NCBI GenBank assembly: GCA_000733355.1
Contig: JNVV01000040.1
Span: 244,600-308,599, forward strand
Direction of reading: 5' to 3'
Length of the DNA stretch: 64,000 nt
Source of the DNA: Falciphora oryzae
Lineage: Eukaryota; Ascomycota; Sordariomycetes; Magnaporthales; Magnaporthaceae
This document shows positions 6,370-17,559 of this stretch, in pieces. The notes beneath the pieces were generated by a model, which saw nothing but the letters and a program-made list of their open reading frames with translations, did not search any database and was not told where the DNA came from. The position numbers and the translations under genes were made by a program. The first letter of the stretch is position 1. Every line of letters starts with the position of its first letter.

Positions 6370-7460
6370 ATGGCCAATCTTGTCAAATTCTACTTCTACT
6401 CGCCCACATGGGACATCCCCCCCGAAGGCTCTCTTCGGATCGGCAACGTTCTCAAGTCGATCGAAACCCCAACGGAGCCGATATCTCGGGTTCTCCCGCC
6501 CGACACGTTAAAACCCGAAAAGAAGGAGCTCGTTATTGCCCCTAGCGCGATGAAGAATGGCAATTTCAGTATTGTTACTAGGTTTTTAAGCTTTTTCAAG
6601 CTGAGTGGTGGCGCGGGCTTCGAGAAAAGGTACGTGGCATTGCTTTTTGCTGATCTTTGTTTGAAGTTGGTCGGCATCGTGACATGAATAACTTCTGACC
6701 CGAGTTCTCCTGCAGCAATGCTTCACGCCACTCGATTGAGCGAATCGTCACGGAGGAGATTCTGTTCGAGGAGGACGAAAAACCCAAGACGGCAGTCGGC
6801 GAAACCCCTGGCACTGAAGCCGGCGAAGCCCCTGGCACAGGAGCCGGAAAAGCCCCCAGCGCCGAAACCGACGAAATCCCTCCTCACCCCAGAGACATCT
6901 ACTGGCAGCAGTGCGTCAACATGCCTCGCGTGAAGGCATATCTCAAGAGCTCCAAGTGCAAGAAGCCAGTCTACGTCATCACGGGCATCAAAACCGCCTA
7001 CGGCGCCAGCGCCGAGTCGCTCACTTCCCGCAGCCGGGGCGGCGGGCTCGAGGGCGGGCTCGACGCCACGGCCGCGACCGGCGGCACCGTCCCCCTGGGT
7101 CTCGAGGCCGCGGCCAATCTGGGCAGCGGAGAAAGCCTGGCAGCGTCGTGGGGCGGCAGCCAGCCTTTTGTCCTTGCGTTCAGAGTCAGGAAGCTCATGG
7201 CAGATAAGGTAACGGGGGAGGTCGTCGACAAAGGAGACTACAATAAAGGTGCTAAGCTGGGGCACGAAACGGAGGAGGGCAAGGGAAACGGTCCCCGGTT
7301 CTTCGTCTCGGCAGCGGAGGATCCAGACGATGAGGGCTACGACAAGGCTGAGGTCACTGAGGGCGATGACAGCGTGTTCTGTGCGTTTTGCAAGGAAGTG
7401 TCTCGGCAACAAGATGCCCCGGAAGTCGTCTGTGGGCAAGAAACGGCTGCGGAGAACTAG
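6370..7460 (+). CDS. Gasdermin-like pore-forming protein (RCD-1/HET-Q1 family)
   Basis: There are two exons, 6370-6629 and 6716-7460, with intron 6630-6715 (GTACGT...TGCAG), giving 334 aa. The N-terminus (FYFYSPTWDIPPEG, residues 7-20), FLSFFKLSGG near 75, PVYVITGIKTAYGAS near 171, a Gly/Ala-rich stretch (190-235), then FVLAFRVRKL (238-247) and DYNKGAKL (261-268) match the layout of fungal gasdermins. These act at the plasma membrane in allorecognition cell death. Compared with the usual ~260-280 aa it is long: residues 105-145 hold a Pro/Gly/Ala/Glu insert with an imperfect GExPGTxAG repeat, and residues 269-334 form an acidic tail. In HET-Q1, a short C-terminal tail is removed by the protease HET-Q2, and a subtilisin-like gene converges on this one, 46 bp away. 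Homology is judged by eye; the role is inferred. Confidence 0.78.
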
Positions 7461-7506
7461 CATCAAGAGGGTAAACAAAGGTGGGCATTCAGGGCAACAT
7501 TGTTTC

Positions 7507-10500
7507 CTAGAACGGTTTCCGTAACAGTTTCTTGACAGAGCTGTGGAACCCCTCATCGTCCCCCCACTGCTCGCCGAAGAAGTTGTCGGCCTTGTCGCTA
7601 AAGTGGACGTAGTCGTATCGGTCGTTGCGGCGAGCGCGCCCTTCGCTGGACCGCGCAATCTCTTCAAGCACCTGTACCATCTTATCCTTCGCCTTCATAT
7701 GCTTGGCGTCCTCCGGCTGCAGATGAAGTCGAGCATACTGCATAAGCGTAGCTGCCATGCCAACGGCAATCGGCGTCGCAAATGATGTCCCGGATTTGTG
7801 CTTGATCATCTTCAAGTTCGGGTCCCTGTCTGCGGGAAATAGGCTGCGGGGCCATAGCGACTTGACTCCTCCACCGAGCGTGGCGATGCTCGGGCAGTGG
7901 CTCGCGTTTGGGCTGAAGCGAGACTTTTGGCCATCTGCATCTACCGAGTATATGCAGATGACGTTGCTGTCGGAGGCAGGGTATGCAACACCTTGGTTGG
8001 CGCCGCCGTTTCTTGCGGCGGCGAAGATGAGCACATCTTTTGCATCCCGGATGGTCTCATGAAGTATTTTGCACTTCTTGGGATCTCCGCAGGTTCCAGG
8101 TTTGCATTCTCCCATCTCCCGCCGAGGCCACCCGATCGAAATGGAGACTATATCGACTTTCCACTCCGTGATAGCCCAGTCAATGGCCTGTTTGTGCCCC
8201 TTGATTAGCCGCTTTCTTGTACTCAGATATTGGGAAAAGTCCTCATACCTTTGCGAGTAGACATTGAGACGGCGCATCTGCATGGCAAACCTTCCCCACG
8301 CACAGCTCGGCTTCGGGGGCATACTTGAGAAGTAAGCCTGCCACGAACGTCCCATGTCCGTCGTGATCTCGGATGTCGTCCCGTCGACTTGGATCAACCC
8401 AATTGCGTTTCTGGATGATGCGCTCGGCCATGATGCCTTCATAGTCAAGGTCTATACCCGTGTCCAGCACCGCAATCCTAACAGGTCGACTGATCGTGCA
8501 GCCGTCGGGGAGGAGACGGCGTTGGACTCGTTTATAGCGCTTCCTCCACTCTTTGTACTCTGCATGCCTGGGTGGGTGCCTGGCGTCAGCCCGTGCGAGT
8601 GGGTATAGGTAAATTGTCTTGGATAGGTAGGTAAGGAGGTAAAAAAAAAAGCGTACTGGTCGGGCCAGCATACCTCTCCAAGTCGGGCTCATCCATCTTG
8701 TCGAAGAATTCAAACCCTGAATTTGGTGTTGCACCACGGGAGGATGTATCCTGTTCAGAATCGCTACATGGCAGGTCGGATCCCACAGGGCTTCTCGACC
8801 CAAAGAGGTCCATGTGTATGGCTTCCGCCATGGTGTCGAGTTCCTCAATGGATATAGCATTGTCCACCATACGGAGGTGCTCTTCAAGCTGCCGGACCAC
8901 GGTATTGTAGAACTTCTCCCTCAGCTTTGTGTCTGAAAGTACCTGGCCGCTCTCAGACTCTTCCCTCCAAAGCTGCATGTCGAGGCAGGCTTCGATGCTC
9001 TTGGCGAATCTTGTGTCGTCGTCGAACACCTTCTTCTTCTGCATCGCACAAAACAGGTCATAGACGTCCAAGGCCCCTGTTCTCTCCATTGAGTCAGGAT
9101 CGCCTTCAGGGCCGCAGTACGTTGTGGCCAGCTCGCGGAATGACTGCTTCGTGTACACTTCCATGAGGGTAGCTGCTAGCACGACGAACGTGGGAACTGG
9201 GTGCGTGCCCGGAAAGTCCATGTCGAGACACTCCCAACTATCGAGGTCCTCGATTGGCCGAAGTTGCTTCTTGAGGAATGGCGTGAGATAGTATTTTGAG
9301 CTAAACGACCTTGTCGGGAGAAAGAAAATGTCCGAAGGACTGAGGGTCTCTCGAAGCCAGGGGGTACCGTAGAGGTGAAGCACTGCATAGCTAAAAAGCA
9401 CGGCAAGAATGTACTTGTGTCTGTCTTCGAAGTGGCTGAGGGTTTGTGTCTTGTCAAGAAGTTGTTTAAGGGTTATGGGCTTTTCCGTTCTGTGTACTAG
9501 GAACGTCCGGCCCTGGGGTTCGTCCATTTTGAGATCCAGGCTCTCGCCACGCGAGTCCAAGATCAACCCCAGGCGTTGGACTCTCTTGTGGGTGAACCGA
9601 AGTTTTTGGCACAGGGGACCAGCGTTGATGGGAATGGTTTCCCCGGTGGGGCAGCTAGACTGAAAGGTGACCTTGTTCGTTCGCACACGCACCTCCGTGA
9701 TTTCCTCCGTGATTTGTGTCTTTTTGTCCACAAGGATCAAAATAAAGGCTTCTCCGTGTGCGTTTTCTCGATCCCTCGACCGTCGCTGTGTTGCCACACG
9801 CATTCTGGCCAGCAACTCTCCCCCCTTGACAACATTGCTGGCCACAGTTGGCCGAATCTTGGAGCGCTTGAAAGATGGAGCGAGCGGTCACGGACAGCTT
9901 GAAAGATGGAGCGAGCGGTCACGGACAGCTTGAAAGATGGCGGTGCTACTTCCTTGGCGGATGAGGGGCTGTCCCATCCGCCTCCTTCTGTCGAGAGGGA
10001 ATCTTGTTTGGGGTCGTCTCTGGCCAGCGCCTGCCATTTTCCTAGGACCGCAAAAAGCTCATCTTCGTCCTGCTCCTTAAGGCCCGAGCCGTAACCCAGA
10101 CTTTTCTTGACAAACTGGATCTTGGCGCCCTCGTCATTCTCATGACATCGCCTCCTCCATTCCTCGTTGAATCGTAGGAGAGTCGGGTAAGGGGCTGGTA
10201 TGACGTCCCGAGAGTGTTGGTGGTCAATAGGTTTCTGGAGCCAGGAGGTGAGGTAGCCCCCTAGGCTCCTTAAATAATTGTATAGCGGATGTTCGGTGGT
10301 GGAAATTGGTAAAAGTAACTCGAAGCGATGCAAGGTTGCTGTGGTGAGTTCGCTGTCCGGCTCCCTGGTGGTCTTGCGGATGATGAAGCACCAAGCTCGT
10401 AGTCTGTCGCAGAATCTCTGCAGATTTCCCTCTGCGACTTCAAGTTTGTTGGACTCGACGAAAGAACATATTTCGCTGAACGATTGAGAGCTATCTGTCA

Positions 10501-10549
10501 GAAGGCGCCATTCGCTGCTGGTCCTTTGAGATGTCGGCATTTGATGCAT
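7507..10549 (-). CDS. Subtilisin-like (S8) serine protease with DUF7580-like N-terminal region, HET-Q2-type; frame disturbed near 9.9 kb
   Basis: The ATG is at 10549. Exons end at 8674, then run 8567-8249 and 8187-7507. Intron 8568-8673 has a GTATGC donor. Intron 8188-8248 has a GTATGA donor, a GCTAATC branch and an ACAG acceptor. The N-terminal two-thirds is helical and contains LRETLSPSDIFFLP, resembling the fungal DUF7580 region seen in front of subtilisin domains. The protease domain has the full catalytic set: Asp in IAVLDTGID, His in HDGHGTFVAG, the oxyanion Asn in FAAARNGG, and Ser in SGTSFATPIAVG. There is no signal peptide, so it is probably cytosolic. A 62-bp tandem expansion at 9866-9927 puts the N-terminal 209 codons out of frame with the rest. 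Either the gene is broken, or a 56-nt intron (9867-9922, GTGACC...TTTCAAG) restores the frame and gives ~939 aa. The neighbouring gasdermin suggests the substrate. Confidence 0.75.
9866..9940. repeat. 31-bp tandem repeat (2 full copies plus part of a third) inside the protease gene
   Basis: Units begin GCTTGAAAGATGG at 9866, 9897 and 9928. Each full unit is 31 bp and ends GGTCACGGACA. Two extra units add 62 bp, which is not a multiple of three. Removing exactly two units joins the upstream and downstream protease frames without any stop, so the expansion is recent relative to the gene. Confidence 0.9.
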
Positions 10550-11347: not shown

Positions 11348-14300
11348 ATGGCTAACTTGCCCGCGCCAAACCCGCCTGAAGAACCGCCAACAATTGATAT
11401 CGTCGCGGATCAATGCTTCCGAGCATTTCGCCGCTGCCTAGAGGCTGGATGTTCTGTCCATGTCCTCCAGCAGTCGCTTTTGCGGGATCAGTTTACCCGG
11501 TTTACATTATGGACGAACTCCATGAGTGTTTTTGCCCAGGGCCGTGCATCTATGCACTTTCGCCTTAGGGAAACACCAGACGTCCAGCTTGTCGTAATTG
11601 GCGTACTCAGAACTCTTCTGAGCCACATACGGAAATGTCAGTCGGTTCTATCTCCCCAAGCTCCTGCATTAACATTATAATGCTGACCGACAGTAGGGCC
11701 GGAGCTACTGTCCCAGGATGGGCCCGTGGATCCGACCGAACCTAGTAAAGCGGGGGGCAGGCTGGACAAGTCCCTTCGAGAGAGGTCTCTTCGAGGCATG
11801 GCGGAGGAAATAAATATGCTTTTTACCGTATCCAACATCATCCGACGGGGCAGTCGCCAATCTCAGAACATTAAAGCAGACGAGGAGAACCCCGAGGTCG
11901 ACCGCCCACTCTATGAGCGCTTTCTCTGGCACGTCCACAGCCACTTCCCAGCACCTCATCGCGGCCGGCCAGCCGAAGACCTTGACGCAGGAGAGCAATC
12001 CACCCGAAACAACTGGGAAGCCATTAGCTCGAGACTTGCTTTAACGATACTCATCCGACAAAAAAAAGTCCTCTACCGGAAGTCGCGATACGGTCGAACC
12101 CCGGCACAGATGAAACGGACGGTCCAGCAGCCCAAAATCGGGATTCCTGTGGTCTCGCAAAAGGATCAGCAACTATCAGAACCTGTGGTCATCAAGGCGG
12201 AGCCAGATCCCGACATCTCTGCGGGCCACGACAAGCCCAAAGCCCACAGCGTCGTCTCTGGTTATACCGCGACAACTTTAACTCAGAGAAGGTACGATAA
12301 AGCTTCGACACCATCCGTCATATCAACCAGCCGGACAGGCCCGTCGACTCGACGAGATGCCCTCGAGTTTCCTCAACGGCCGGTCCACTGCGTCAACGAG
12401 AAGTACCAAAGAGTGGTAGACGAGAGATGGCCACTGTTTTGGCAGATCCTCCAAGAAACTTTGGAGGAGGAGGATGGCACCACTTCGACACTCGCTGAAC
12501 GATTAGACGCAGCAGTGGATGATCTGGATCGGTCCCTCAAAGGGGAGTTCCTCGCCTGTGTCCGTGGGGTGGCTGAGCTTACCTGCCCGATCTGCTTCTG
12601 TGCCCTTCCTGGCGAAATTCTACTTAGTAGATCGAAATGGGAGTAAGTTGCCTACAACCACGGTGTCACCGAAAGACAGGGGAACAAAAGCACGCAGCTA
12701 ACCAGAGCCATTAGGTCACACGTACTGGGCGATCTCGACGCATACGTATGCCTTTTCCAAGACTGTAGTATTCCCAAGGAGCTTTACGGCCACCGAACCA
12801 ACTGGATAAGCCACATGCGTGAACACACTCGGCGATGGTCGTGCGTAACAAAGTCACATGGGAAACAAGATTTTACGACAAGAGAAGAGTACATCGACCA
12901 TGTAGCGGTTGAACACAGCGGCGCATATACCGAAAGGCGGCTCCAACTGCTTGCAGACAGAAGTTCTTGGATCCCGGAGCAGCTTTTCGACTGTTGCCCA
13001 CTTTGTGGTGGAGATGTCGAAACCGCCAAAACCGAGGAGCATATTGCGAAACATCTTAGGATGCTCGCACTAACATCTTTGCCACATGAGAAAAGATACG
13101 ACGAAGACAATCCTCATCATGACAACAAGTCACATCACACCGACAGCTCCGACCTCTCAGTCACACCGACCATCGCAGAGTACACTTCAGACCAAGGTGA
13201 CTCGGAAGCACAAGAAACCCCGGCGCAGGAAGGAGATGCGCCAGAAGAGGATAGGGAGCCGCCAGATGACGATCTAGCGGAACAACAGCTGCGTGAAGGG
13301 ATTCCCAACTCACCCTGGCAGGGTTTTTTCCAGCCTCCGTCAGAACCATCTCTGGATAACGATTCTATCCTCAAATCACTCCTCGAACAACAGAATGACA
13401 CTTCCCGCGGGGCAGTGTCTATTTCTGCGACCAAACAAGTTGTACAAATACTGAGAAGGCTCCGGAGGCTTGTGGGTAAAAAGCGCAGCGATCTCGTCAA
13501 GGAAAGGCTGGACGCAGTTCCCAGTGACAACCCTAGGGACGACCTCAGCGACGCCAGCGACGACAGCGATGACCCCGGCGATGACCCCGGCGATCAGCAA
13601 TTGCTGTCCGACCGGCTAACAGGCGAGATGGCCCGAGGTGATTTCCCTGACGGCAACAGATTCTACTTTCCTACGCGAGCCTATAAACTCGTCGTAGGCG
13701 ATGCCGTCTCGCAACAGATGCGCCTCGCCCGGCGGAAACACAACCGGGAGCTCGTGAGATTCATTGTAGAAGACGCCCCCAAGCTGTTCACCCTCGTGGC
13801 GACGACGTGGCCCAGAGATTACCGACTGCAATTTGAAATAATGAAGTGGTTCCGCAAAAAAAAAATCCGAGACGGCAGCGTCAGCGCCAAGGTCAAGCGC
13901 GCGACCGGCCAGGGTGTGGGACGGAAGCACTCCTGGTTTGACGAGGAGTGGCTTCTCGCCCAGGATGAGAAGCTGTGGAGTATCACGGAAGTGCAAAGCA
14001 TTTGCGAGAACCAGTGGAAGATACTGGTGCCCGTGCTCTCGACGAAGGAGGCCAGCTATGACTTTGGAGAGGAAACGATTCTTCCCTTCACCAAGGTCAA
14101 GGATGCGCAGCAAGCCCGCGAGGCATTTAGCATCGTGACCAAGGTTCAGATACAGCCGGGGCACTTCACAGACGAATCTCCGATCAAGCGCGTGAGTTGT
14201 CTCCCTTGAACTTGGGGTCCAGGGCTGACCGTTCTCAGACCTCCAACGATTTAGATGGCCAGGATTCGGCTGCTGCCACTGCGGAGCCTGAAAACTACCA

Positions 14301-15426
14301 GTGGCCGGAGGATTTTGCGGTAAAGGAGATTACTCCCCTTGAGGAAGAGCGGCAGAATATAGAGGATACCTTCGCCAACGAAGTTCAGACGCTGAGGACC
14401 ATGAATGACCACTGCTGCGAGCATATCCTCCGCTTTGCCACGGCATTCACCAGGGGGAACGACGCGTCGGACCGCCGCTACTTCCTTGTCTTCGAATGGG
14501 CCGACGGCGGGAGCCTTGAGGACCTCTTTGATAAGCACCGAAACCCAGTGTTAAGCAAGGCGCTCGTGAGACGCGTGGCGAGTCAGATACTGGGGCTAGC
14601 CACTGCCCTGAAAGCCACCCATGAGGTTAAGATCCGCCACGGAGACCTCAAGCCGGGAAACATTCTCTGGTTCAAGCCCAAAGGCAGCAACACCGCGGAC
14701 GGCGAGACGGGCAGCGGCGACCAGGACTTCATCGGGACGCTGAAGATCGGCGACTGGGGGCTGCCCAAGTACCATTTCGAGGGGACCAAGCACCGCGGGG
14801 GCCGAGGCATGGGGACCTTCACCAAGTACGGCACTCCGCTGTACGAGCCCCCCGAGGTTGAGCAGGGCATCGGAAAGGGCGGCGAGAAGGTCCTGGGCCG
14901 CCAGTACGACGTGTGGTCGATGGGATGCATCATCCTAGAGATACTAACCTGGCTCGTCTACGGCTACGATGGCATCCAGCGCTTCCGCCGAAACGTCAGG
15001 AACAACCGCAATTCGCGCGAGGGAACCCCCTGCTACGAGATGGTGCTTGACAGCGAGACCAAGCACAAAGCCAAGGTCCGGTGGGCCGTCACCCAATGGA
15101 TGGAGCACCTCGCCGGTCAGCCATTGTTTGCGAGCGACCAGGCGCTCGGCGCCCTCCTGCAGATTGTCCGGGAAAACCTCATCGTCGTCAAACTGCCTCC
15201 CGAGTTCGGGGAGACGAGGTCCGGTGGAGGCGCTGTCTCGCCGCCTCCGATCCCTGAGATCCGTGTCACAGCAGGGACAAGTCGCGGGGACAGCTTGAAC
15301 CCGCAGAGTTCCCAAAAGGCAAGAATTACTTCGACTGCACTAGTGGATAAACTGAAGACTAAAGTTTTCGAGGAGGACGACCCGGAGTCTGACTGGTGGT
15401 TTCGCCCAGCACGCAAGAGTGGGTGA
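11348..15426 (+). CDS. C2H2-type zinc finger (acuF-like) protein fused to a C-terminal protein kinase domain
   Basis: There are four exons: 11348-11636, 11694-12642, 12715-14191 and 14239-15426. Each intron has a matching donor and a GCTGAC/GCTAAC branch. The product is 1,300 aa. Residues ~390-530 hold fungal zinc-finger blocks: CPICFCALP, YVCLFQDC, WISHMREH and CPLCGGDVE...HIAKHL. Residues ~535-640 are acidic and disordered. The kinase domain (~740-1230) has the ATP lysine in FAVKEI (~934), HGDLKPGN (~1039-1046, HRD variant), DWG (~1077, DFG variant), and PPEV as the APE motif. No normal glycine-rich loop precedes the lysine; a variable ~30-residue insert is there instead. It is probably an active or semi-active Ser/Thr kinase. 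Kinase domains are common in fungal immunity-type proteins, but a role with the adjacent gasdermin pair is inference. The stop lies in the end of the pogo-type element, so the native tail may be lost. Confidence 0.82.
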
Positions 15427-15430
15427 CCCC

Positions 15431-15477
15431 ACTTTGGGCCACCCCCTACTTTGGGCCACCCCCTACTTTGGGCCACC
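15431..15477. repeat. 17-bp direct repeats (2.8 copies) in the transposon end
   Basis: The unit ACTTTGGGCCACCCCCT occurs at 15431 and 15448, with a partial third copy at 15465-15477. Such subterminal repeats are typical transposase-binding sites. Confidence 0.85.
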
Positions 15478-15564
15478 ATTTCCGACACAACAAATGCACT
15501 ACTTCATCAAAACAAACGCGATCTGAACGAAAACAGTACCAATTTGTATACTTTTTTTTTCGCC

Positions 15565-16010
15565 ATGACGTCCGATTCCGACTTCCGAATAGCCGAGGCC
15601 ATCCAATCTCTCGAGTTAGGCCAATCCGTACGCAAGGCGACCCGCGATTGGAACGTATCGCGCTCGACCCTCCAACGACGACTCCAAGGAGGCCGGACCA
15701 TGCGGCAGGCCAAAGAACCCGTTCAGAAACTCTCCAAAGAGCAGGAAAGCTTCGCTGCTGACTGGTTTTGTACGGAAGAGGTAGCAGGGCGCGCTCCAAC
15801 GCGAGAAATGGTGCGAGAGTTCGCGCAGGTCATGTTGCCTACCGGACCCGAGGCCGGCCGACTTGGGAGGCGCTGGATTAAAGGCTTTCTATCGCGTAAC
15901 CCGACCCTTATGACCAAAGTAGGCCATGGCCTCGAGGCTGCCCGAGCAAAGGAGGTTACCAAAGAAAATATCCAAGCGTTCTACAGCCGTCTCCAAAGCA
16001 TGGTAGACGC
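15565..16010 (+). pseudogene. Truncated pogo-family transposase (DNA-binding half only)
   Basis: From the ATG at 15565 about 149 codons remain. Residues 5-50 form a psq-type helix-turn-helix (IAEAIQSLELGQSVRKATRD and VSRSTLQRRL). Residues ~65-135 match the CENP-B-type second helix-turn-helix (GRAPTREMVREFAQ, GRRWIKGFLSRNP). The frame is clean up to the LTR at 16011. The DDE endonuclease domain that should follow, about 300 residues, is missing, so this copy cannot transpose by itself. Confidence 0.8.
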
Positions 16011-16485
16011 TGTAACAGGTCTTGGCCCTACTATAGCAGGCTACAGCAGTGTCAGACCTGGGAAAAAAGGGGGTTCTTTTAGGGAGATCTCAGAGGTTCA
16101 GCAGCTCAATAGTCGTATTTGTGCAAGTCTATGGTGATGATGAAACAAAGACGATAGCTTGCCCTCCTGACCTCCTTCACAGGGGGTCCCTCGGGCTCTT
16201 CTTATGCTCTGGCCCTCCGGCCGTCTTTCGGTTGTCATCGGCACGCCTCCTCCTCCGTGGCGTCCGTCGGAACCGGATATGCTCCGTTCCTTTTAGGGTT
16301 CTGAGCTTGGGTGCGTCTTTGGCCGGGCCGGAGGCCAACCGGCATGCGTGTCACAGAGCCAAACTCTCTTGATCCGCACGTCCGTCAGGGCTTGCGCCCT
16401 TCCGGCTACCACCCGGAGCCCTCCCCTGAGGCCACCGGTGGCGTTCCCTGAGGCTGCTGGTCATGGTTCTGTGTGGGGTGTTACA
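16011..16485 (-). repeat. Solo LTR of the same family as the gag-only element
   Basis: It begins TGTAACAGGTC and ends GGGTGTTACA, in the same orientation as the LTRs at 3-5 kb. It is 475 bp with the single-unit structure. No internal region is attached. The 5 bases outside each end (GACGC and GGGAA) differ, so it is not a simple insertion followed by LTR-LTR excision. Confidence 0.85.
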
Positions 16486-16544
16486 GGGAAGAGATCCCTC
16501 AATGTTATTTACTTTACTAATGAGAATTCACTCGACATCTCGGG

Positions 16545-17559
16545 GTTCCCAACAGCGATTGGCGCATGCCGACCTGGCTGCGCCCGCTAGGCCAACACCT
16601 GGTCAAGGATTTGGGCAAGATCGAGAAAAACATCAGGCGGGCGAAGCGGCTGATGATACCAGTGATCGAACAGCGCCTGCGCGACATGGAGACGCTTGGC
16701 ACTGACCGGCCCGACGATCTCACCCAGTGGCTGCTCGAGGCCCTGCCCGAGTCGGAGCGGACCGATACGGACGCCCAGGTTATGCTGCAGCTGGTGCTGT
16801 GCGCTGCGAGCATCCACAGCAGCAGCAACCCGCTGGTCGACGCCATTTACGATCTGGCTGACAAGCCCGAAGTTCAAGCCGAGCTCAGGCACGAGGTGGA
16901 GGAGGCGTTTGCCAAGGGCGGGTGGTCCAAGCGGGACAGTATCATGAAGTTGAAGAAAATGGGCGGCTTCATGAAAGAGGTCCAGCGGCTTAGGGGCAAT
17001 ATCAGTGAGTGCCATCTGCCTAGCATCGCCGTCTACACACGAAGGGACGGCCAACTGACAGCGTCCGACGAACAGCCGGTTTCATCCGCAAGGTTGTCAA
17101 GCCCATCGCCCTATCCGACGGCACGCACTTACCGGCAGGGACGAGGCTACTAGCGCCACAGGCGGGCATGTCGCAGGACGCGCGCTTTTGCGAGTCGCCC
17201 GAGACGTTCGACGCACTGCGCTTTTACAAGATGCGGCAGCGGTCCGACGAGGACCGGAACCGGTGGCAGTTCACGTCCATCGAGAACAGCAACATGAGCT
17301 TTGGGGCCGGCAAGCACTCGTGCCCAGGGGGGTTCTTCGCGGGGACCGAGATCAAGATGCTCTGGCGCATTTTCTGCTCGGCTACGAGATGAGGCTCAAG
17401 GACGGCGAGGAGAGGCCAAAGGGCTACGCCGTCATGATGTCCAAAGGGGCGAACCCGGAGGGCGAGGTCATGTTTCGCCGGAGGGAGTGTGCCGATGGCC
17501 GGATACTTGAAGCTTGCGTTGCAGCTGCACCTCGACGCCGTGTCTACCAACTTACCTAG
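16545..17559 (+). pseudogene. 5'-truncated, frameshifted cytochrome P450 (ent-kaurene oxidase-like fungal type)
   Basis: The first part begins mid-protein at TWLRPLGQHL and runs through the I-helix region (AASIHSSSNPL) and the ExxR motif (KEVQRL). Intron 17005-17075 (GTGAGT...AACAG) leads to the segment with LPAGTRLLAPQAGMSQDARF and the heme-binding FGAGKHSCPGG (Cys ligand present). At ~17359-17363 one base is missing: the expected continuation (AHFLLGYEMRLKDGEERPKGY) is in the next frame and runs to a stop at 17559. The N-terminal ~200 residues with the membrane anchor are absent, replaced by the LTR. This family usually oxidises terpenoids or other secondary metabolites. With both losses the gene cannot make a normal enzyme. 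Confidence 0.82.

Follow-up and report, generated by a model that had tools for sequence, protein, structure and literature searches.

A fungal gasdermin gene and a convergent gene for a subtilisin with an MLKL-like domain as a probable cell-death module in Falciphora oryzae

The window considered here, 64,000 nucleotides of contig JNVV01000040.1 from the ascomycete Falciphora oryzae, contains two convergent genes, one encoding a protein that is, by its sequence, a fungal gasdermin (fGSDM) homologous to RCD-1 and HET-Q1, the other an S8 subtilisin-like protease carrying a DUF7580 domain that looks, from profile comparisons, like a pseudokinase of the MLKL type. It is probable that the pair, i.e. 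a gasdermin together with a Q2L-type activator, makes up a two-gene, perhaps three-gene, death module. Homology, adjacency both within and between genomes, the catalytic motifs of the protease, and the similarity of DUF7580 to MLKL are the observations on which this proposal is based. The gasdermin gene has the following features.

6370..6629, plus strand: gasdermin exon 1, with the ATG at 6370 (P0001 tblastn piece 6370-6627)
6630..6715, plus strand: gasdermin intron, GTACGT..CTGCAG; the homologue runs on across it
6716..7460, plus strand: gasdermin exon 2 to the stop codon; the product has 334 amino acids in all
6797..6856, plus strand: 24-bp tandem repeat within the gasdermin gene, encoding a Pro/Gly/Glu/Ala linker (repeat scan and alignment)
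7236..7259, plus strand: residues 261-268, DYNKGAKL, where the core meets the acidic tail; putative cleavage zone

The gasdermin layout that a first-pass annotation had claimed for the 334-residue protein is borne out, in that the motifs FYFYSPTWDI, PVYVITG and FVLAFRVRKL are all found in it, and a family profile of 12 homologues, searched against the PDB, matched RCD-1-1 (2.4e-14), RCD-1-2 (4.1e-10) and the HET-Q1 pore (1.1e-6). Five of the six PDB rows with E<=1 were RCD-1/HET-Q1 fungal gasdermins, the sole unrelated row being an antibody at 0.86. When searched as a single sequence the protein retrieved HET-Q1 at 0.016, plus one unrelated row at 1.8; a Pfam scan gave no model above cut-off. 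The AlphaFold model of the Gaeumannomyces tritici homologue P0001 (RB598_000279) was poor, with a mean predicted local distance difference test score (pLDDT) of 35, and homology is therefore the sole ground for assigning the fold. P0001 is 83% identical to the window protein, and its tblastn pieces, 6370-6627 (85%) and 6705-7430 (81% identical), back the proposed splice. The length of the linker encoded by the 24-bp repeat differs between species, being shorter in the two closest homologues.

Beyond L268 there is an acidic tail of 66 residues, with 18 Asp/Glu versus 5 Lys/Arg. At the join of core and tail, D261, Y262, G265 and A266 are invariant across the 13 aligned gasdermin rows, a looser G-A-x-hydrophobic pattern is seen again, by eye, in several gasdermin paralogues, and the alignment with HET-Q1, as a chain of PDB entry 9uv9, reaches query residue 263, i.e. 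within the DYNKGAKL motif. It is proposed that this DYNxGAxL motif would be the cleavage zone of the gasdermin.

The protease gene, which is read on the opposite strand, ends 46 bp from the gasdermin stop codon, confirming the convergent arrangement reported in the first-pass annotation. Its parts are as follows.

7461..7506, no strand: spacer of 46 bp between the two stop codons of the convergent genes
7507..8187, minus strand: last protease exon, the part of the S8 domain with the Asn and the catalytic Ser (GTSFATP), to the stop codon
8188..8248, minus strand: protease intron, GTATGA..CAG; homologues run on across it
8249..8567, minus strand: protease exon with the catalytic Asp (LDTG) and His (GHGT)
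8568..8673, minus strand: protease intron, GTATGC..CAG; seemingly retained in P0013, absent from P0014
8674..9887, minus strand: protease piece in frame -2, with DUF7580 (about 9614-8871; Pfam PF24476)
9884..10549, minus strand: protease N-terminal region (P0013 residues 1-220), with its start codon at 10549

The subtilisin with an Asp/His/Ser triad and a DUF7580-like region that had been described at first pass is likewise recognisable: Peptidase_S8 (4.7e-29) and DUF7580 (PF24476, 9.8e-20) both exceed the curated Pfam cut-offs, and the triad motifs LDTG, GHGT and GTSFATP are present. Pfam matches to DUF3604, Glyco_hydro_48 and Fe_bilin_red fell below cut-off and were rejected, and no Pfam model passed its cut-off on the N-terminal piece of the window protease; the AlphaFold model of the homologue P0015 has a helical N-terminus, at low confidence. 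The gene carries two introns, 8673-8568 and 8248-8188; the public G. tritici annotation P0013 (RB598_000278) seems to keep an intron that P0014 lacks. A homologue search, in which 7995 candidates were scored, returned 13 homologues (877-987 amino acids), all 13 of which have both DUF7580 and S8 domains. The protease is, on this domain evidence, fused to DUF7580 as a regulatory or sensor domain, with sensing as its predicted role.

The pairing of the two genes extends beyond F. oryzae. In G. tritici, the protease homologue RB598_000278 (78% identical) and the gasdermin homologue RB598_000279 have consecutive locus tags, as do, in G. hyphopodioides, the protease homologue RB595_004360 (75%) and the gasdermin homologue RB595_004359, the longest contigs listed being equally long for both members of each pair. 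The gasdermin-protease pair is thus conserved in these two named species; adjacency of the homologues in other genomes had been set beforehand as a test of the first-pass proposal, which withstands it. Gaeumannomyces species are the nearest named relatives of the strain in the homologue searches. Two further proteases, P0016 (RB599_010083, G. hyphopodioides RB599) and P0017 (RB594_006639, G. avenae), are 46% and 45% identical to the window protease, respectively, and the 12 gasdermin homologues listed include no row from the RB599 or RB594 isolates. P0016 and P0017 may be divergent paralogues or haplotypes, and offer only a lead for allorecognition alleles.

The conserved protease partner bears on the possibility that the locus acts in the manner of RCD-1 of Neurospora crassa, i.e. 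that two gasdermin alleles, brought together by cell fusion, kill by forming a mixed pore, with the S8 enzyme not being needed. RCD-1-1 is the top PDB match of the gasdermin profile, and the RCD-1 proteins are by this measure (2.4e-14) the closest solved gasdermins. RCD-1, however, works by the pairing of two alleles and is described, in passages of PMC12881547 and PMC10197012, as not being controlled by cleavage, whereas the gasdermin considered here, in the one strain examined, has an acidic tail and a protease partner, which is conserved in two further species. We regard RCD-1-like action without a protease as highly unlikely.

The genome searched for other pairs was the 50.2-Mb assembly that contains the window. 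The gasdermin queries were five proteins, each itself beside an S8 gene, a choice that may favour paired subfamilies. Eighteen gasdermin-like loci were merged by hand from the five query lists, two matches (C78 and C91) being dropped as they aligned solely to the part of the query that precedes the gasdermin, and 66 S8 rows were similarly merged by hand into 53 loci; the gasdermin counts are lower bounds, only the best candidates having been scored. An S8 match lies within 5 kb of 16 of the 18 gasdermin-like loci, where about 1.2% per locus is expected by chance (binomial P 4e-29), and 13/18 also have DUF7580 within 5 kb. Viewed from the other side, 16 of 27 DUF7580 loci have an S8 match at a distance of 2 kb or less, and for 14 of those 16 a gasdermin locus of the set of 18 is also found within 5 kb. 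The unpaired gasdermin loci, C70 and C59, contain stop codons, as do some paired loci; the stops may be intronic. A scan around S8 genes found gasdermin-like frames in 8/10 S8 regions, including two loci (C12 and a further one on C58) that were found only in this way and are outside the 18. Another convergent pair of a gasdermin and a DUF7580-S8 gene, with long open frames, occurs at L028 (G000 C98:54500-61500) and is perhaps a better copy for experiments.

It could be argued that such adjacency is without function, the S8 protease doing something else and being a neighbour by chance or inheritance, and cutting of the gasdermin by it is so far a prediction. That 16/18 gasdermin loci are paired with S8, and that the paired loci are variously convergent, same-strand and divergent, arrangements that one inherited block would not produce, make this extremely improbable. 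Clustering of gasdermin and protease genes is, moreover, already in print (passages of PMC10197012, PMC12881547 and PMC10989679), the share of fGSDM genes that cluster with a gene for a protease being given as about 80%, and the share of fGSDMs for which this is an S8 enzyme as about 63% (PMC10197012, in part).

The nature of the DUF7580 domain was addressed by searching profiles against all PDB chains, three of them being composed of 10 (A5), 16 (A7) and 13 (A9, which omits L054, L041 and L046) stretches, and two smaller ones of six other paralogue stretches (A6) and six homologue segments (A8, four of them shortened, P0022 being left out). The top match of A5 was MLKL (5.7e-4; 3/4 rows MLKL), as was that of A7 (1.3e-4; 10 of 12 rows MLKL, the other two being OSR1 kinase) and that of A9 (4.9e-5; all 11 rows at E<=10 MLKL). 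L054, which itself has a weak kinase match, was considered as the driver of the MLKL match and ruled out, as A9, from which it is omitted, outperforms A7. A5 and A8 clearly represent one family (hhalign 99.9%). When 31 DUF7580 stretches were aligned, none had H/Y-x-D at the column aligned with the HKN of L054, which makes it most likely, as judged from these aligned residues, that the domain lacks catalytic activity; an Asp occupies the third column of the aligned catalytic site in 1/31 rows.

Structural comparison of the protease model gave matches spanning the S8 domain only, and a comparison with a viral library of structures gave S8 proteases at the top and, below them, weak rows that included a few kinases, so the case for a kinase fold in DUF7580 comes from sequence profiles and the predicted order of secondary structure elements. 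In the AlphaFold model of P0015 (pLDDT 63), residues 230-540 are predicted to form three strands, followed by a helix, two more strands and a set of helices interrupted by a pair of strands, which would, on our reading, fit a kinase fold.

Several results weigh against the proposals made so far. The smaller profiles, A6 and A8, reached no kinase in the PDB search; A7, when set against the kinase of the window itself, which is encoded by a neighbouring gene, gave just 1.9%; and a Pfam scan of the 10 A5 members returned one PK_Tyr_Ser-Thr match (6e-4) and one Pkinase match (0.16). In addition, the reading frame of the protease is broken in the assembly, so that an intact protease is not supported; the first-pass annotation had missed both the break and the two introns. 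Two features mark the break.

9808..9921, minus strand: zone with two frame changes relative to P0013 and P0014
9866..9940, minus strand: 31-bp unit, 2.4 copies at 100% identity, lying in the reading frame of the protease

P0013 matches the window in three frames (10549-9887, 9909-9769 and 9830-8631), and P0014 does likewise, such that the N-terminus of the protease is out of frame with the remainder in the assembly; the copy may be altered or mis-assembled. The 31-bp array is beyond chance, there being two exact full copies versus none expected. A role for it as a simple copy-number on/off switch was rejected because the second frame change adjoins the repeat. In the third protease frame the earliest internal ATG is at 9803, from which a product of about 709 amino acids, comprising pseudokinase and protease, could be made.

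It is quite possible that the pair is decaying or altered, the N-terminal region of the protease having been lost through the 31-bp repeat and the second frame change, leaving either no functional activator or the shorter product starting at ATG 9803. That two homologues map onto 9909-9811 in three frames, with a perfect 31-bp repeat at the site, is consistent with such a loss, as is a 'pseudogenization' route to het-Q1/het-Q2 that is in print (PMC10197012, in part). Frame changes are also not found everywhere, since the neighbouring gene matches its homologue P0026 in a single frame over 11390-14089 (2.7 kb), with two in-frame stops that are possibly intronic, which speaks against generally poor sequence in the region. 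However, the frame changes at 9909-9811 could still be an assembly error, or an unusual intron could explain the apparent break, and an intact gasdermin alongside a constitutively active shorter protease should be lethal, from which it follows that the short form, should it be real at all, is either silent or restrained.

If, as we think probable, the pair is a death module, its mechanism can be drawn by analogy with HET-Q1/HET-Q2, as described in parts of PMC10989679 and PMC12881547. The gasdermin would be kept inactive by its short acidic C-terminal tail, and the sensor-protease, organised as an N-terminal region, an MLKL-like pseudokinase (DUF7580) and a subtilisin, would be off at rest. 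A cue to which the N-terminal/pseudokinase part responds would switch on the protease, the active protease would cut the gasdermin near the conserved DYNxGAxL, and the freed gasdermin core would form plasma-membrane pores, leading to cell death. We infer, in this scheme, the cut and its site, the pseudokinase switch, the cue, and pore formation. A role for the locus in allorecognition is possible. The stimuli that activate fungal sensors are called a major open question in PMC12881547 (in part).

As in the HET-Q1/HET-Q2 system of Podospora anserina, a fungal gasdermin, with a short C-terminal tail that is proposed to be clipped, is here combined with an S8 subtilisin-like protease. By contrast with HET-Q2, a stand-alone protease of 388 amino acids (PMC10989679, in part), the protease here is multi-domain, having an MLKL-like pseudokinase and, ahead of it, an N-terminal region, and, unlike het-Q1 and het-Q2, the two genes occur side by side in one genome. 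The HET-Q/RCD-1-type locus envisaged at first pass therefore stands with respect to gasdermin homology and the S8 neighbour, but not with respect to a HET-Q2-like protease. The layout is shared with the Q2L protease-fGSDM two-gene clusters (Clave et al. 2022, as reviewed), in which an S8 protease with an extra regulatory domain lies beside a gasdermin, a Q2L activator being an S8 or CHAT protease encoded within 10 kb of the gasdermin gene; the parts named in passages of the reviews, i.e. WD40/ANK/TPR/NLR and 'predicted kinase-like domains', differ from the DUF7580 found here. Bacterial gasdermin-protease operons similarly have a gasdermin with an adjacent activating protease (passages of PMC10197012 and PMC10989679), but differ in their operon setting and anti-phage role. 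The DUF7580 profiles match the pseudokinase domain of MLKL, from mammalian necroptosis, and little else in the PDB, yet the executing part here consists of a protease and an adjacent gasdermin, and no four-helix killer domain like that of MLKL was recognised.

The gasdermin-protease layout is thus already known, and the MLKL-like control module is the new part, at least with respect to the relevant passages of PMC12881547 and PMC10197012. A search of a paper library for DUF7580/PF24476 found no mention of either term; those passages of PMC12881547 mention proteases fused to 'other predicted kinase-like domains', and no passage naming MLKL-like pseudokinases in gasdermin proteases was found in the parts of PMC12881547 and PMC10197012 considered. 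Eighteen protein architectures cover about one-third of some 1500 Q2L sequences (PMC10197012, in part). If DUF7580, which lies beside 13/18 gasdermin loci, is indeed an MLKL-like pseudokinase and often accompanies gasdermin-linked S8 proteases, many Q2L receptors would have a switch that lends itself to testing, and the control side of necroptosis would be coupled to the executioner of pyroptosis. The broken protease N-terminus beside an intact gasdermin would, if real, be a natural case for the het-Q1/het-Q2 'pseudogenization' model.

DUF7580 also occurs in other settings in the genome. It shares one frame of 1141 amino acids with PNP_UDP_1 at L029 (1468-4890; G000 C15:461000-468500; C15:463k), and at L054 (G000 C9:988500-991800) a HET domain (5e-37) lies just downstream of it on the same strand. 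From this fusion and this neighbour, the module seems to have been combined with several immune effectors.

Upstream of the protease lies the neighbouring kinase gene, the possible third component.

11348..15423, plus strand: neighbouring gene, with an N-terminal/middle part and a C-terminal kinase domain (14131-15423); exons approximate

Its kinase domain is matched by Pfam Pkinase (8.1e-27), and 31 of the 41 homologues listed for the gene have a HET domain. The G. hyphopodioides protein RB599_003983 shares its N-terminal half (65-66%) and then has different domains, which, by their accession numbers, we take to be NACHT-like (PF24883) and ankyrin repeats. A segment of the gene (11687-12643) has three matches in the genome, i.e. 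the window itself, C70 (with a gasdermin remnant) and C15:466k (DUF7580-PNP), all of which adjoin gasdermin or DUF7580 loci, and the best paralogue of the kinase (C37:64.8k) has a DUF7580 locus some 4 kb away. The homologues of this third gene that are listed in Gaeumannomyces (RB597_005806 and RB599_003983) come from other isolates, such that adjacency to the pair is seen in this genome only. The kinase gene may be a third component of the module. Because the segment matches and the best kinase paralogue adjoin gasdermin or DUF7580 loci, it can be entertained, as a rather unlikely extension, that the kinase acts on the MLKL-like pseudokinase as RIPK3 does on MLKL, so freeing the protease to cut the gasdermin, with DUF7580 being a general non-NLR switch on S8, PNP_UDP and HET effectors.

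Immediately after the kinase gene, window positions 15427-16134 match HTH_Tnp_Tc5 (1.3e-6) and HTH_psq (3.8e-5), marking a transposon remnant next to the cluster, and a cytochrome P450 fragment (3.6e-12) is present at 16524-17150.

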